A stretch of 64,000 nucleotides of DNA, taken from contig CALEDJ010000045.1 in NCBI GenBank assembly GCA_937951485.1, forward strand, positions 62,001 to 126,000, in the 5' to 3' direction. The stretch is from an uncultured bacterium (lineage in GTDB: Bacteria; Hydrogenedentota; Hydrogenedentia; Hydrogenedentales; CAILVY01). Positions 19,465-64,000 of the stretch are shown in pieces. The notes below the pieces were generated by a model. It saw only the letters and a program-made list of their open reading frames with translations. It had not been told where the DNA came from and did no database searches. The position numbers were made by a program, and so were the translations under genes. The stretch's first letter is position 1, and every line of letters starts with the position of its first letter.

Positions 19465-19670
19465 TATTCTTTGCGTGCGGACTTGGGGAGGCACGCGGAC
19501 CGATATGGACGAACATGGACAGGGCGCCGAGGCTGATGCCAACGTTCCGTGCCGATGCCCCGCTTGAAAGCCTTTGGAAGGGGTCGTATACTGCCGTCAA
19601 TCAAGCCGCAACAGAAGGATGGGTAACATTTCAGCCGACTGGTGTAACCTTTCGAATCAACACACATAAC

Positions 19671-19770
19671 GAGACATTTGCGAAATGGACTGTTTTCGAT
19701 CATAAGAACACGAAATATCCTGGTTTTTGGCCGGGACTCAGGTCCCTGACACCTGTTTTGCAAATGCCTC
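19671..19770 (+). repeat. 100-base dispersed element, copy 1
   Basis: Starts GAGACATTTGCGAAATGG and ends TTTTGCAAATGCCTC, so the ends are imperfect inverted repeats. The core CATAAGAACACGAAATATC (19701-19719) is identical in the copy at 51344-51441. Related copies are at 30113-30211 and, cut by the window edge, 63983-64000. Confidence 0.8.
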
Positions 19771-19845
19771 ATGACATTTTCTTTTCGTCATTGCGAGCGG
19801 TGAGGCGCACTGCGCCGCTGAGCGAAGCATTGTGGGGCGCACTGT

Positions 19846-19888
19846 GTATCCGGATTGCCGCCCTGCGCTTCACTGCGACCGCGATGAC
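19846..19888 (-). repeat. TCATTGCGAGCG-type dispersed repeat
   Basis: On the minus strand this 43-base sequence matches 38472-38514 with only a few changes (GTCATYGCG at one end, GCGGCAATCYGGATAC at the other). A degenerate opposite-facing half copy starts at 19786, so the pair can fold into a hairpin. Repeats of this type are common between genes in many uncultured bacteria. Confidence 0.75.
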
Positions 19889-19945
19889 GGCGTTATGCGT
19901 AGTGGTTAGTTCAGTCGGCTGAAATGTTACAAATATGGAGGTACC

Positions 19946-30112: not shown

Positions 30113-30211
30113 GAGGCATATGCGAAAAGAACTGTTTCTGCTCATAAGATCAAGAAATATCCATGATTTCAGATGGAACTGGGGACCGGAAGGCCCATTT
30201 TGCAAATCGGG
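30113..30211 (+). repeat. 100-base dispersed element, copy 3
   Basis: Diverged copy: GAGGCATATGCGAAAAGA at the left, CATAAGATCAAGAAATATCC in the core, GATTTCAGATGGAACT as in the 51344 copy, and CCCATTTTGCAAATCGGG at the right. It sits between carA and the ABC operon, ending nine bases before a candidate -35 box. The remainder of the gap 30011-30334 holds only promoter-like sequence. Confidence 0.7.
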
Positions 30212-50364: not shown

Positions 50365-51303
50365 CTATCGGCGGCGGCGGGCGGCATGGGCGATGCCCAT
50401 GGCGTTGATCTCGATGTCTGTACCGAGCCAGGAGAGATCGAAATCAATATCCGATACATTGCACCAGCGCAAATGCGCTTCGGTCGCTTCCTGAACGCGG
50501 TTCCGGCAGAAGGCATCCAGCGTTTCCTCGGGCTGAAGCACGGCGTCGTGGAGAATGGCGGTCAGTTGGTCCAGGAAACGCAGCAGCATTTCCCCGGCCT
50601 GCTTCAAATTCGTGTGGATGCCGAAGTGCGGCAGGCAGGCGTGCTGCGCGCCGGTGGCGAGAATACGGTGGACGGTTTTCCGGGCCTCGTCCGGGTCGAA
50701 ATCGGGCGGCGCGCTGGTGGCCACATAAAACGGCGGGCCGGGCCGCACGCTTTCGTTCAATCCCAGACCGAACGCGTCGCCGGTGAAAATCGTTTTTTCG
50801 CGGGGGTCCAGAATGCACATGTGGTGGGTGGCGTGGCCGAGGGTGTGCATGAAGCGCAACTCGCGCGAGCCCCATTGCAGGGTCTCGTTGTCGGCGATGG
50901 AACGCACACGATCCGCCGGGACGGGTTTTATCTCGCCATACAATTCGGCGAAGGCCGCCGCGCCATAGACCGCGGTCGCGCCGGCAACGAGTCGCGCGGG
51001 GTCAATCAGGTGTCGCGCGGCCTTCGGGTGCGCCAGCGCCGTTGCGTTGGGGCAGGCCTCGAGCAGCGCCGCCGTGCCCCCGGCATGGTCCAGATGGACA
51101 TGGGTGATGATGGCGTATTCCACGTCTTCCGGGCGTCGGCCTGCCTTCGCCAGGGCGTCGAGCAGGTGCGGCAGGGCGCGCGCCGTGTTGTTGTCCACAA
51201 ACGCGGCGCGGTCTTCTTCCAGCAGCAGGTAGGCCGCCGCGCGCTGCGGCGCGGCATAATGACAATCCACCGCAATGACATTGGGTATGGGGTCAACCGA
51301 CAT
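50365..51303 (-). CDS. MBL-fold metallo-hydrolase
   Basis: A 312-residue metallo-beta-lactamase-fold protein. The metal motif H-x-H-x-D-H is THVHLDHAGG (His68, His70, Asp72, His73); further ligands are in TLGHATHHM and FTGDAFGLGL, and HFGIHTN supplies the last His. All dinuclear-site ligands look intact. The layout resembles lactonase or glyoxalase-II-like hydrolases; there is no signal peptide, so it is cytosolic. Substrate unknown. It lies 166 bases upstream of the Tat oxidoreductase on the same strand. Confidence 0.9.
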   Translation of the reverse strand: MSVDPIPNVIAVDCHYAAPQRAAAYLLLEEDRAAFVDNNTARALPHLLDALAKAGRRPEDVEYAIITHVHLDHAGGTAALLEACPNATALAHPKAARHLIDPARLVAGATAVYGAAAFAELYGEIKPVPADRVRSIADNETLQWGSRELRFMHTLGHATHHMCILDPREKTIFTGDAFGLGLNESVRPGPPFYVATSAPPDFDPDEARKTVHRILATGAQHACLPHFGIHTNLKQAGEMLLRFLDQLTAILHDAVLQPEETLDAFCRNRVQEATEAHLRWCNVSDIDFDLSWLGTDIEINAMGIAHAARRRR

Positions 51304-51343: not shown

Positions 51344-51441
51344 GAGGCATTCGCGAAATGGGCGTTCCGGTTCTCAGTTTCATCTGAAATCCCTGATATT
51401 TCGTGTTCTTATGCGCAAAGAGTCCATTTCACAAATGCCTC
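51344..51441 (-). repeat. 98-base dispersed element, copy 2
   Basis: On the minus strand GAGGCATTTGTGAAATGG ... CATAAGAACACGAAATATC ... GATTTCAGATGAAACTGAG ... CCATTTCGCGAATGCCTC. The ends are inverted repeats of each other with few mismatches. It occupies the centre of the 308-base gap between the divergent MBL and aroA genes; the rest holds only promoter-like sequence, including GATATGATC at 51550-51558. Confidence 0.8.
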
Positions 51442-51611: not shown

Positions 51612-52889
51612 ATGAAACTTGTGGTGGAAGGCGCGCCCTTGCGGGGCGCGGTGGAAATTCCCGGATCGAAATCGCACACGATCCGGGCGGTGGCGATTGC
51701 GGCGCTGGCGTCAGGCGAAAGTCTTATTGAACAACCATTGATCTCAGAGGATGCGTGGTCCGCCTTCCGGGCCTTCCGTGCTTTTGGCGCGGATATCCGG
51801 GACGAGGGCGCGGCCTGGCACATCAGGGGAACCGGCGGCCAACTTGCCGCACCGGACAATGTCATTGACGTGGCCAATTCAGGCACGACCATGCGGATTG
51901 CTCTGGGCAGCGCTACGCTGGTGCGCGAAGGCATCACCGTGCTCACCGGCGACGATCAGGTGCGCCGCCGTCCCTGCGGCCCGCTGGCCAAGGCGCTCAA
52001 CGACCTCGGCGCGCGCGTGCGCGCAACGCGCGGCGGCGGAACGCCGCCATTTGTGGTGGAAGGCGTGCTGCGCGGCGGCGAAACGACGATGGAGGCGGTC
52101 ACCAGCCAGTATGTGACCTCATTGCTGATCAACGCGCCGCTCGCCGAGGGCGACACGCATCTGTGCGTGCCGGCGCTGAACGAGAAGCCGTATGTGCAGA
52201 TGACGCTGGACTGGCTCGCGCGCCAGCAGATTCGCGTGGATTACGCGCCCGACCTCAGCGAATTCCATATTTACGGCAGCCAGCGATATTCGCCCGTGCG
52301 GCGGCGCATCCCCGGCGATTTTTCGTCCGCGACCTTCTTCCTTGCCGCAGGCGCCCTCTCCGACAATGATGTGATCTGCAAAGGGCTGGACTTAAGCGAC
52401 ACGCAGGGCGACAAAGCCGTGATCGACTACCTGCGCGCCATGGGCGCGAAGATCACCGTTTCCGATGATGGTATTCGCGTGCAGGCCGCGCCGCTGACGG
52501 GTTGTGAAATTGACTTGAACGCGACGCCCGACGCCCTGCCCATGATGGCCGTCACAGGCTGTTTCGCGCGCGGCGTCACGCGGCTGGTGAATGTGCCGCA
52601 GGCGCGCCTGAAGGAAACCGACCGGATCGCCGTCATGCGGATGGAATTGGAAAAACTCGGCGCGAAGATAGCCGAGTTGCCCGATGGCCTGGTGATTGAA
52701 GAAAGCGCCCTGCGCCCCGGCGAAGTGGACGGCCACGACGACCACCGGGTGGTCATGGCGCTCGCCATCGCGGGGTCCATGCTGCCCGGCGCCACCGTCA
52801 TCCACGGTTACGAAGCGGTGAACATCACTTTTCCCACGTTTGTAAAGGCATTTCAGGGACTGGGCGGCAGGGCGCGCATCATGGATTAG
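51612..52889 (+). CDS. aroA: 3-phosphoshikimate 1-carboxyvinyltransferase (EPSP synthase)
   Basis: A 425-residue enzyme joining shikimate 3-phosphate and phosphoenolpyruvate, the sixth step of the shikimate pathway. PGSKSHTIRAVAIAALASGES opens the substrate site (read in two parts, PGSKSHTIRA and VAIAALASGES). ANSGTTMRI, RRPCGPLAKAL, ISEFHIYGSQ-like strand, FSSATFFLAAGAL and the signature RLKETDRIAVMRMEL are present, and GHDDHRVVMALAIAG closes the site. Length is normal. With aroKC 565 bases downstream it makes a partial shikimate cluster. Confidence 0.96.
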   Translation: MKLVVEGAPLRGAVEIPGSKSHTIRAVAIAALASGESLIEQPLISEDAWSAFRAFRAFGADIRDEGAAWHIRGTGGQLAAPDNVIDVANSGTTMRIALGSATLVREGITVLTGDDQVRRRPCGPLAKALNDLGARVRATRGGGTPPFVVEGVLRGGETTMEAVTSQYVTSLLINAPLAEGDTHLCVPALNEKPYVQMTLDWLARQQIRVDYAPDLSEFHIYGSQRYSPVRRRIPGDFSSATFFLAAGALSDNDVICKGLDLSDTQGDKAVIDYLRAMGAKITVSDDGIRVQAAPLTGCEIDLNATPDALPMMAVTGCFARGVTRLVNVPQARLKETDRIAVMRMELEKLGAKIAELPDGLVIEESALRPGEVDGHDDHRVVMALAIAGSMLPGATVIHGYEAVNITFPTFVKAFQGLGGRARIMD

Positions 52890-53320: not shown

Positions 53321-53457
53321 GCGACCGGGCGCCCCGCCTTACCGCCCGGGAGATTATTCGGGTAATCGTACGCAGAGGATTCACGTTTGGTTCGTGTTAT
53401 GATCGGGCTTTTCCGCCGATTCCGGCGCATTTTTCCTGGAGGCAGGGACACACGTGA
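53317..53457 (+). pseudogene. hicA: Truncated HicA toxin remnant
   Basis: The frame starts with ATGA overlapping hicB and reads MSDRAPRLTAREIIRVIVRR then GFTFGS. This matches the HicA N-terminus (family pattern RLPRVTGKELIRALKKAGF). It breaks off exactly where the GSHH catalytic histidine motif should follow, continuing with unrelated residues to a TGA after 46 residues. Without the active-site His and the rest of the RNA-binding fold it should be inactive. Its stop overlaps the GTG start of the aroKC gene (GTGA). Confidence 0.7.
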
Positions 53458-55076
53458 ATATCGTCATCATGGGACCCAAAGGCGCGGGGAAATCGTCTGT
53501 GGGGCGCATTCTCTCCGAAATGACCGGCATGCCCACCGTCGAGACTGACGCGATGGTGGAAGAACTGCATGCGCAACGTGACGGCCACCGGCTGAGTTGC
53601 CGCGAGATTTACGCCGAGCACGGCGAGCGGTTCTTCCGTGACCTGGAACGGCAGGTCGCCGTCGAGGCGGCGCGTCTCGACTGGCACCTCATCATCACCG
53701 GCGGGTCGCTCATGCTCGATCCGATCGCGCGGCGCAGCCTGCGCGCCGGGGCGCTGCTGGTCTATATGGTCGGCAAGCCCGATGTGCTCTGGCAGCGCGC
53801 TATCCAGCAGGGCGTTCCGCCATGGCTCAGCGGTCCCGACGGCCCGATCAAATATGAGGAACGGATCGCGGTACAAGAAGACATCCTCCGGCCCTACGCC
53901 GACATTCTGATTGACACCACCGAGGGCAGCCCTGAGGAACTTGCGGCCATGGTCGCCGACCGGCTCGCCCAGGAACTCGCCATCCACAGCCGCGCCGCCA
54001 ACACCTTCGGCGAACTTATCCGGGTCACGACCTTCGGCGAAAGTCATGGCCCCGCCATCGGCGCGGTGTTTGACGGTATCCGACCGGGTATTCCCATTTC
54101 CGAAGAGGTTATCCAGCGGGAACTGGATCGCCGCCGCCCCGGTCAGAGCGCCGTCGTCACCCGCAGAAAGGAATCGGACACTGTCCACATCCTCTCCGGC
54201 GTTTTCGAGGGCAAAAGCACCGGCGCGCCCATCGCGATGGTGATTTACAACGAGGATCAAAAATCCCAAAACTACGACGCGATCAAGGATTTGTTTCGGC
54301 CCGGCCATGCCGATTGGACCTTCTACAAGAAATACGGCATCCGTGACCATCGGGGCGGCGGGCGATCTTCCGGACGGGAGACGGCGTGCCGTGTGGCGTG
54401 CGGGGCCATAGCGCGTGAAATCCTTGCGGCACGGGGGGTGCGCATCGTCGCGCACGCTGTGGAAATCGCCGGCATCGCCGCCCAGACCTGCGATTATGAG
54501 GTAATCGAGCAGAACCCGGTCCGCTGCGCGGACCCCGTCGCGGCGGAAAAGATGACCGAGGCTATTCTCGCCGCGCGCAAAGACCGCGATTCCGTCGGCG
54601 GCGTCATCCAACTCGACATCCTCGGTGTGCCGCCCGGTCTGGGCGACCCGGTTTTCGCCAGACTCGACGCCCGGCTCTGCGCCGCCATCATGACCATTGG
54701 CGCGGTGAAGGGCGTGGAAGTCGGTGATGGATTCCGCCTGGCGCGCCTGCGCGGCAGTGAAGCCAACGACAACATGGCCGACGGCGACTTTCTCAGCAAC
54801 CACGCGGGCGGCATTCTCGGCGGCATCAGCACGGGCGCACGGATTGTCCTCCGCCTCGTGGTGAAGCCCACGTCGTCCATCGCCAAGGAACAGCGGACCC
54901 TGGATATCCACGGCAATAATGCCACCATCGAAGTGCACGGGCGCCATGATCCCTGCATTGTGCCCCGCGCAGTGCCCGTCGTGGAAAGCATGGCCGCCCT
55001 CGCCCTGCTTGACGCCTGGGAAATCCAGGCGCGGCTGCGCCCCGAATGGGCCGCCCAATGGGAAAAACAAGTGTGA
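53454..55076 (+). CDS. aroKC: Fused shikimate kinase-chorismate synthase
   Basis: A 540-residue bifunctional protein. Residues 1-175 are a shikimate kinase: Walker A GPKGAGKSS, substrate-region Asp in VETDAMVEE, Arg in ERFFRDLERQ, and TGGS where GGG is usual. Residues about 182-540 are a complete chorismate synthase: TFGESHGPAIG, RRRPGQS, IRDHRGGGRSSGRETACRVA, DSVGG and NHAGGILGGISTG, which bind FMN and EPSP. It would catalyse steps five and seven of the shikimate pathway, with AroA at step six encoded just upstream. The GTG at 53454 overlaps the hicA remnant's stop, so translation may be coupled. Chorismate synthase length is normal, so no part was lost in the fusion. Confidence 0.93.
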   Translation: MNIVIMGPKGAGKSSVGRILSEMTGMPTVETDAMVEELHAQRDGHRLSCREIYAEHGERFFRDLERQVAVEAARLDWHLIITGGSLMLDPIARRSLRAGALLVYMVGKPDVLWQRAIQQGVPPWLSGPDGPIKYEERIAVQEDILRPYADILIDTTEGSPEELAAMVADRLAQELAIHSRAANTFGELIRVTTFGESHGPAIGAVFDGIRPGIPISEEVIQRELDRRRPGQSAVVTRRKESDTVHILSGVFEGKSTGAPIAMVIYNEDQKSQNYDAIKDLFRPGHADWTFYKKYGIRDHRGGGRSSGRETACRVACGAIAREILAARGVRIVAHAVEIAGIAAQTCDYEVIEQNPVRCADPVAAEKMTEAILAARKDRDSVGGVIQLDILGVPPGLGDPVFARLDARLCAAIMTIGAVKGVEVGDGFRLARLRGSEANDNMADGDFLSNHAGGILGGISTGARIVLRLVVKPTSSIAKEQRTLDIHGNNATIEVHGRHDPCIVPRAVPVVESMAALALLDAWEIQARLRPEWAAQWEKQV

Positions 55077-60678: not shown

Positions 60679-63600
60679 TCAGTTCAGGGCGAATATGCCC
60701 GGCGCGAAGCCGTCCTCGGAACTCTCCTGCCTGTAGTAATACCGTCCCGGTGAATTGAACAACTGAATGGTGCGCAGCAATTCGGACAGGTCTATGACCC
60801 AGTCCTGCGGATTATAGTCGCTGCTGTGCGGCGCACAAGCAACGACCCCGGCAAAGAGCGCATAGCCGTCTTCCGTACCCTCGGCGCACTGGTAACCGCC
60901 GACGTTGTATATCTGAATAACGCGCAGCATCTCGGAGAGTGAGATGCTCCAGTCGCCGTCGGTGTCGGCGCTGTGGCGCATGCCCGCGCCGGGATCGGGG
61001 GCAAGCGGCGTCGGAATGATCTCCGTGCTCAACTCGCCGCTGTCCGCCCCGCGATATACGGCAGCGCCCAGAATGGCGTGCACGCCGTCGGCATTCGGAG
61101 GAACATTCACCCGGTACACGACCTGCGCGGGGAAGGACGGCATATTCAGCCACACGAATTCGATGCGGCCGCCGTCACCGGGTTCAGGCCCGGCTTCCGC
61201 ACCGGCCGAATCCACCACCTGCGCAACCGTCCAGCCTTCCGGCAGTTCTTCCCACAGGCCAAGCGCGGAAAGATAGCCTTCATGCACCTTGTGGATGGTG
61301 ACCACAACGGTCAGCGGCTCACCGGGCCGATAATAGCCGTTGCCCGCGCGGCGCGCCATATGCAGAAGCGGATCATGGTCCCCAAAGCCCGGTCCCGCAT
61401 CATGGACCGCCGCGAGAATTTCGTCCATGGTGAGCAGGCCGTCGCCGTTGAGGTCGGCCGCCGCGAACACCGCCGGCGGCAGCGGGTAAAACGCCAGCAC
61501 TTCCTCATAGGAAAGCGCGCCGTCGCCGTTCGCGTCTATCAGTCGGAAGAGTTCGTGCAGCATGCGCAGGAACGGATTCGGCGGCGGCGGGGGCGGGGGT
61601 GGGGAATCATCCAAATCGTAACAGTCAATCACGCCATTCCCGTTGCGGTCCAGTAGATTAAACTGGTCTCTGGTGAGATACCCCGCCACTTCGTCGTATT
61701 CGATCACGCCATTCCCGTTGAGGTCCACCAGCATGAGCGGCGGGCCGGGATAAATCATGATCCACATCAGCCCGTTCACATAATCCAGGACTTCCTCGAG
61801 GGAGAGCAGTCCGTCGCCGTTGGCGTCAATGATCGCAAAATCCCCCGCGGAAATCGGCAGCACCACCTGCACTTCCGCCAACGACAGTTGCCCATCGCCG
61901 TCCAGGTCAATCACCGGCCACACGTGCCGGAGCAGAATCTCCCAATCATTGGGCAACGGACAGTACTCTCCTTCGCCCTCGCCCTCACCTTCGCCCTCGC
62001 CCGGGGGCGCCATGGCGAAATCGAGGCAATCAATCAGCCCGTCGCCGTTGAGGTCCAGCATCGCGAACTGCGCGGGCGTGATATACATCGCAACCTCGTT
62101 GTAGGTGACTACGCCATCGCCGTTGACGTCAATGTAATTCAGCGGGTCTTCGCCGATCAGCGATGGCAGCACCGGCAGGAACGGCAGCACTTCTTCAAGG
62201 GAGAGCAGGCCGTCGCGGTTCACGTCCGCCAATGCGAAAACCATGTCAATGTCTTCGGGATACACCAACCAGGCAGGCAGGACAGCCCTCAGTTCCGCCC
62301 GGGAAATCATCCCGTCGCCGTTGAGATCAATCACCGGCCATACGAAGTACAGCCAGTCTTCCAAGTCGCGCGGCACGGGACAGACAACCGGCGGCTCCCC
62401 TTCGCCCTCGCCTTCGCCTTCGCCCGGCAATGGCCCACATACGTCCGGCGGCGGGATGATGTCGTTGCAGTCAATCACGCCGTTGCCATTGCGGTCCGCC
62501 AAGGAGAACTGCTCCGGCGTCAGGAGGTCTTTCACTTCGGCATAATCCAGCACGCCGTTCCGGTTCCAGTCCAGCGCCGCCGGCAGCGGGTACATGCCCA
62601 ATGCCGCGAGAATATCCGGTAATATCGGCATCGTCTCTTCGTAGCAAAGCAGCCCGTCCCCATTGATGTCCATGACATCGAAGATCATTTGGAACGTCGG
62701 CATGTAATCATATTCTTCCGGTACGAAACTGGTTGCCTCAGCGAAAGAGAGCATTCCATCGCCATCGGCGTCCATGAGCGGCCAGGCGATGGCCAGCAGC
62801 ACACCGACATCATCCGGCAGCGGACAGGGCGCCGGCGGAATCTCGAAATCAAGACAGTCAATCACGCCGTCGCCATTGCGGTCCAATTGCGCAAACTGTT
62901 CCGGTGTCACATACTCGGATACTTCGTTGTGGGTAATGACGCCGTCGCCGTTCAGGTCAACATAATCCAGCGGATCGCCGCCAAGAAGGCCGGCCAGCAG
63001 CGGCAGGAAGTTCTGGATTTCTTCCATGGTAATTTTCCCGTCGCCATTCACGTCCACCAGGGCGAAAGCCATCTCAAAATCGCTTTCATTCACCAAATCA
63101 TCCGGTAGAATCCTCCATAATTCTTCGCGAGAAATCCCCCCATCACCGTTCAGGTCAATCACGGGCCAGACGAAGCGCAACAGCACTACAGGATCAGTGG
63201 GCACGGGACAACCCGGAACCGGCGGTTCTCCTTCTCCTTCTCCTTCTCCCTCGCCTTCGCCCGGCGGCGGCACATCGCCGATATCGCCACAATCAATCAC
63301 GCCGTTACCGTTGCGGTCCAGCACATCGAACTGTTCCCGCGTGGCAAAATCGCTGACTTCGGAATACTGGATCAACCCGTCGCCGTTCATGTCCACCATA
63401 CCCAACAGCCCGCCGGGCGCCAGCATGGGGAGCAACGGCAAAAGCACGATAATTTCGTTCCGCGTAATCACCCCGTCTCTGTTCCTATCCACCAGATCGA
63501 AGTACTCCCGCTCCAGCGGATACACCGCGAGCAGTTCACTGTACGAAACGCCCCCGTCGCCATTGGCGTCCAGCAGCGGCCAGATCAGGTCCAACAGCAC

Positions 63601-63711
63601 CACTGGATCATCCGGCAGCGGACACGGCGCCCCGTGCCCCGTCCCAGACGCCGGAAACGCCATCGTCAACGCCGCCGCCAGCAGCACGCTCATCCATATC
63701 GCGTTACGCAT
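60679..63711 (-). CDS. Secreted multi-EF-hand protein with GEGEGE linkers
   Basis: A 1010-residue protein with a signal peptide (residues 1-23). I count 22 canonical 12-residue calcium loops (DANGDGGVSYSE, DRNRDGVITRNE, DMNGDGLIQYSE ... DLNGDGLLTMDE) in modules of four, each starting CPxPxDxxxLLxxxWPxxDxNGDG. Modules 1, 3 and 4 are followed by GEGEGEGE linkers; a PPPPPPPP linker follows module 5. Next come a beta domain and two divergent half-loops ending in DWSISLSEMLRVIQIYN and DWVIDLSELLRTIQLFN, a repeated C-terminal module. It should be surface-exposed and stiffened by calcium; a role in adhesion or anchoring is inference. GAGGAGAACC precedes the ATG at 63711. Confidence 0.88.
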   Translation of the reverse strand: MRNAIWMSVLLAAALTMAFPASGTGHGAPCPLPDDPVVLLDLIWPLLDANGDGGVSYSELLAVYPLEREYFDLVDRNRDGVITRNEIIVLLPLLPMLAPGGLLGMVDMNGDGLIQYSEVSDFATREQFDVLDRNGNGVIDCGDIGDVPPPGEGEGEGEGEGEPPVPGCPVPTDPVVLLRFVWPVIDLNGDGGISREELWRILPDDLVNESDFEMAFALVDVNGDGKITMEEIQNFLPLLAGLLGGDPLDYVDLNGDGVITHNEVSEYVTPEQFAQLDRNGDGVIDCLDFEIPPAPCPLPDDVGVLLAIAWPLMDADGDGMLSFAEATSFVPEEYDYMPTFQMIFDVMDINGDGLLCYEETMPILPDILAALGMYPLPAALDWNRNGVLDYAEVKDLLTPEQFSLADRNGNGVIDCNDIIPPPDVCGPLPGEGEGEGEGEPPVVCPVPRDLEDWLYFVWPVIDLNGDGMISRAELRAVLPAWLVYPEDIDMVFALADVNRDGLLSLEEVLPFLPVLPSLIGEDPLNYIDVNGDGVVTYNEVAMYITPAQFAMLDLNGDGLIDCLDFAMAPPGEGEGEGEGEGEYCPLPNDWEILLRHVWPVIDLDGDGQLSLAEVQVVLPISAGDFAIIDANGDGLLSLEEVLDYVNGLMWIMIYPGPPLMLVDLNGNGVIEYDEVAGYLTRDQFNLLDRNGNGVIDCYDLDDSPPPPPPPPNPFLRMLHELFRLIDANGDGALSYEEVLAFYPLPPAVFAAADLNGDGLLTMDEILAAVHDAGPGFGDHDPLLHMARRAGNGYYRPGEPLTVVVTIHKVHEGYLSALGLWEELPEGWTVAQVVDSAGAEAGPEPGDGGRIEFVWLNMPSFPAQVVYRVNVPPNADGVHAILGAAVYRGADSGELSTEIIPTPLAPDPGAGMRHSADTDGDWSISLSEMLRVIQIYNVGGYQCAEGTEDGYALFAGVVACAPHSSDYNPQDWVIDLSELLRTIQLFNSPGRYYYRQESSEDGFAPGIFALN

Positions 63712-63775
63712 GGCCTTGGTTCTCCTCTTGGGTTGAATCGCAATAATCTCGAATATCCACTTCTCTCCTTTTACT

Positions 63776-63804
63776 ACGATATCACGAGGCATCCTGTGTG
63801 TCAA
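63776..63804 (-). promoter_or_regulatory. Candidate promoter of the EF-hand protein gene
   Basis: On the minus strand TTGACA (63804-63799), 17-base spacer, TATCGT (63781-63776). The leader would be about 60 bases. Confidence 0.6.
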
Positions 63805-63982
63805 TACAAATTGGCGCAGCGCGCGGCATAAAGAAGTATTCGTCACAGGGGAACGGGTCTGTCCGTTCGTGTCAATTTTGGCGCACAGGCTTCAGCATGT
63901 CGGGTAAGAAAGGCGGCACATCCCCCTGCTCCCGTACAAAAGAACCGCCTCCGCGTCTGTTCTTCGGGGGGGGTATGATAGC

Positions 63983-64000
63983 GAGGCATTTGCGAAATGG
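63983..64000 (+). repeat. Dispersed element, copy 4, cut by window edge
   Basis: GAGGCATTTGCGAAATGG, the exact terminal sequence of the 100-base element family, runs off the end of the window. Confidence 0.6.

Follow-up and report, generated by a model that had tools for sequence, protein, structure and literature searches.

Short non-autonomous DNA transposons (MITEs) are taken here as elements of less than 500 bp without coding capacity, which carry terminal inverted repeats of ~4–30 bp and are flanked by a target duplication in younger copies; further criteria are that they are multi-copy, mostly intergenic and AT-rich, and that the same ends are found on a related autonomous insertion sequence (PMC10969869). 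The family described here, referred to as type A, combines inverted ends and 5-bp duplications with a length that leaves no space for a gene, and thus has the anatomy of a MITE. It was detected in a 64,000-nucleotide stretch (the window) of the 4.55-Mb genome of an uncultured Hydrogenedentota bacterium. It is very probable that its members are MITEs moved by a DDE-type transposase which acts in trans and makes a 5-bp staggered cut.

The initial annotation had described four copies of a ~100-bp element with inverted ends in the window. This was supported by a search for the end motif GAGGCATTTGCGAAATGG, which gave six window matches at up to three mismatches, against 0.10 expected from shuffled sequence (Table 1). 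Inverted partners of the ends were found for the copies at 19671 (19753–19770) and 51344, while single ends were found at 30113, where the right end has been lost, and at 63983. As had been noted before, all four copies are intergenic, and in every case the flanking genes are divergent. These pairs, named from their translations, are a sugar-isomerase-like gene and an epimerase, carA and an ABC transporter ATPase, an MBL-fold gene and aroA, and an EF-hand protein and a response regulator. The sequences on either side of the 51344 copy (CAATGATG and AATGATAC) are possibly a target duplication that has decayed. Two open frames of the window were also read from their translations: one just downstream of aroA (53454–55076), a single frame with an apparent fusion of shikimate kinase and chorismate synthase, and a large one (60679–63846) in which EF-hand/dockerin-like DxNGDG motifs recur, with GEGEGE linkers.

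Table 1. Type-A copies and associated features of the window.
Feature	Position	Strand	Remarks
Composite repeat, ~308 bp, 27-bp inverted ends GTAACATTTCAGCCGACTGG...	19623..19930		Type-A cargo at 19671
Type-A MITE copy, 100 bp	19671..19770	-	Cargo of composite repeat 19623-19930
Type-A MITE copy with degraded right end	30113..30207	-	Between carA (-) and ABC transporter ATPase (+)
MBL-fold gene	50365..51303	-	Neighbour of 51344 copy; read from translation
Type-A MITE copy, 98 bp	51344..51441	+	Divergent gap between MBL-fold gene and aroA
Left terminal inverted repeat of 51344 copy, GAGGCATTCGCGAAATGG	51344..51361	+	
Right terminal inverted repeat of 51344 copy, GAGGCATTTGTGAAATGG	51424..51441	-	
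aroA	51612..52889	+	Neighbour of 51344 copy; read from translation
Type-A MITE copy end	63983..64000	-	Runs on past window edge to 64081, 99 bp in total

Using the 51344 element as a single query, it was possible to recover 40 full or nearly full copies from the whole genome. Searched genome-wide at up to three mismatches, the end motif gave 193 matches (96 + 97), against 12 (4 + 8) for a reversed control pattern, which indicates about 90 elements; the genome scan therefore did reveal further copies, but not the hundreds per genome that had been predicted from the window. Copies were catalogued from stretches around the candidate sites, and the 66 complete copies range from 92 to 113 bp, have no coding capacity and, when aligned with their flanks, show sharp boundaries at GAGGC...GCCTC. 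Their terminal inverted repeats are 18 bp long with 91.6% of cells paired (54 copies). Conservation is 95.6% in columns 3–16 of both ends compared to 83.0% in the interior (p = 5e-7), which fits repeated use of the ends by a transposase. Identity of the copies is 63–98% with a mean of 78%, and current activity may therefore be absent.

Target duplications were tallied over the same 66 copies by counting exact flank matches for each length, separately by boundary, with the 5-bp and 6-bp sets read jointly. Exact matches of 5 bp were present at 25 copies and of 6 bp at five (30 of 66 together), compared to 0.5 expected 5-bp duplications when flanks were re-paired, and no other boundary had an independent excess. 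Examples of duplicated flanks are ATACT, GATGA, AGACC, TGAAT, GGCGC and GGTAA. A perfect duplication is missing from about half of the copies; this would be expected for old ones, but it does not prove transposition for every copy. A second family, type B (111 bp, nine copies catalogued in the same genome), has only its ends in common with type A, and at one site (L064) a type B element is nested within a type-A copy with TTGATG flanking it on both sides. Together, the target duplications and nested insertions identify the family as a mobile element, and the role in expression or transcript structure hinted at in the initial annotation was not supported.

The type-A copy at 19671 lies within a composite repeat, which together with its MITE cargo also occurs at four or more further sites of the genome (L050, L068, L070, and L072); this repeat has spread together with its type-A cargo. 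Another MITE of ~155 bp, with GTAACCGTTCACGGGG ends that are reminiscent of IS66, occurs at 19 places in the genome (L249–L267), seven of which have exact 8-bp duplications, and several contigs break within it. It is inserted in type A at an identical 8-mer, CGGGATTT, at L249 and at L250/L256. Since L250 and L256 could be the two sides of a single site, the number of such insertions is two or three.

Placement of the family was analyzed using a simple codon-usage gene finder, and only one of 63 placed copies is contained in a predicted gene, while coding sequence makes up ~80% of the window. In silico removal of the element together with one duplication left empty sites of which 58% lay in an open reading frame of 150 aa or more; for random points this was 89% (p = 2e-9). 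Both the copies and their flanks are 48% G+C compared to 62% for the window.

Sequences sharing the ends were then sought in other genomes. The end motif is present in 10 of 68 Hydrogenedentota genomes, and outside the phylum the exact 18-mer has about nine matches in 257 Gb against 7.5 by chance (our own calculation), which is about the chance level. The full type-A element was found in no other genome of the 60 searched. G002, a genome of the same family as the source, carries MITEs of ~130 bp whose ends are the same but whose interior is different, and a 5-bp duplication flanks 15 of 27 of these against 0.58 expected. Genome G009 has elements of ~100–140 bp in which the same ends, with slightly different right ends, border other interiors. 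Sharing between families extends over 18 bp and in some up to ~27 bp. Since type B and the MITEs of these two relatives have only the ends in common with type A, it appears that all of them are moved by a single kind of transposase.

Evidence of a longer element with these ends came from contig ends. Three contigs of G002 and five of G047 terminate precisely 141 bp into identical copies starting with the end motif, and stopping at one k-mer length within a repeat is how de Bruijn assemblers behave, hence a longer multi-copy element is indicated. This is probably the autonomous insertion sequence, judging from these contig ends in two relatives. An intact autonomous copy or a transposase with the MITE ends was not recovered from the source genome or the relatives searched, and peptides of G010 and of the 141-bp ends matched nothing in Pfam or NCBIfam. 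A search of six genomes for IS1380 (PF13701) and DDE_Tnp_1 (PF01609) transposases gave no match in the source genome, and both were rejected as partners given that the MITE ends were absent at all loci examined in the relatives. Two loci of G002 (L269 on C35 and L268 on C217) have transposase genes of ~606–610 aa that match DDE_Tnp_1; the inverted ends there, around CTTCCGCAG, are unrelated to those of the MITEs. An ISAzo13-family transposase of G010 (L149 on C508, 1441–2664) is found ~230 bp away from one copy of the end motif. It was likewise discarded, as it apparently has its own ends (GGCGTTAATAAATAAAGGTA, by eye) and seems to sit within an older element ending in the MITE motif; it had no match in G000, G002, G009 or G047. 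No flanking transposase was recognized by eye at singleton end matches (G026, G060, G006, Planctomycetota, and others), and the viral contigs, plasmids and phages searched yielded nothing convincing.

It was also considered whether the family could be a structured RNA under conservation or a cis-acting regulatory element, for instance a small RNA, terminator or attenuator recurring in front of many genes, as a hint of conserved RNA structure in the initial annotation had suggested. Intact single copies do form much better folds than shuffled sequences (z -3.7 to -6.5), but this is mainly because of the inverted ends. Changes on both sides of a pair numbered 3 against 2.6 in shuffles (cells 4 against 3.4; 54 copies), and the covariation score of the end pairing was within chance, being equalled by 44 of 500 shuffles of the same 54 copies. 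Base changes thus do not preserve the pairing of the ends beyond chance, and the data give no support to a conserved role as RNA. Instead, pairing decays through one-sided changes, there is no sign that it is kept up after insertion, and the copies seem to degenerate with no constraint on pairing that could be detected. RNAalifold gave no consensus fold for the family, Rfam had no match to the element, and a terminator-like site was not found at the two window copies examined. Copies are often upstream of genes, with 30 of the 62 intergenic copies in divergent and 25 in tandem gaps, as a regulatory element would be; the few at convergent sites (seven) and the occurrence of the same ends on two unrelated interiors speak against this. 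The intergenic bases themselves are 37% divergent, 47% tandem and 17% convergent, and by our own estimate the distribution of the copies is not clearly different. A structured RNA or cis-regulatory element is regarded as very unlikely.

Two other kinds of mobile sequence were compared with type A. Palindromes of the REP/BIME type, mobilized by RAYT (a Y1 transposase), are similarly extragenic, hairpin-capable and high in copy number, and the abundance and palindromic form of the family would agree with such an origin. REP/RAYT systems, however, are not known to have either target duplications or two-ended ~100-bp units, whereas type A has both, and this origin is extremely unlikely. Tn3 elements also make 5-bp duplications, and a miniature element derived from them (TIME) would share with type A both this duplication and the lack of genes. 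Tn3-family ends are ~38 bp long and start with GGGG. The type-A ends start with GAGGCATTTGCG and have 18–27 bp in common, so they differ in sequence (GAGGCATTTGCGAAATGG) and length from the Tn3 standard, and a Tn3 origin is most improbable.

For the favored reading, a MITE family mobilized in trans, the ~18-bp inverted ends, which lengthen to ~27 bp of common end between some families, would be the binding and cleavage sites of the transposase. We infer the DDE-type chemistry and the mobilization in trans, in which the enzyme would be supplied by a complete insertion sequence bearing these ends. A 5-bp staggered cut would give rise to the 5-bp target duplication, AT-richer intergenic DNA would be targeted with no strong sequence preference, and the inserted copies would then decay with no detectable constraint on pairing. 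A more speculative proposal, which we consider unlikely, is that a single unrecognized family of Hydrogenedentota insertion sequences, which has GAGGCATTTGCGAAAT ends and makes 5-bp duplications, repeatedly spawned unrelated MITEs, and that copies in divergent promoter regions were retained for altering flanking expression.

The family contributes to the non-coding DNA of a phylum that has been little studied, and it could lead searches for regulatory RNAs astray. Its ends, being common across genera, offer a handle for locating the insertion sequence that moves these MITEs. The 12-mer end sequence GAGGCATTTGCG was not found in the open-access MITE literature, and type A is a previously unlisted MITE family that is ordinary in kind. 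It resembles Chunjie of Geobacter, QMITE2 of Coxiella, MITEAba12 of Acinetobacter and the Correia elements of Neisseria, which are also short with inverted ends and a duplication in young copies, and also intergenic and AT-rich, present in tens to ~100 copies and inserted into one another; type A differs from these bacterial MITEs in its host phylum, the Hydrogenedentota (PMC10969869).
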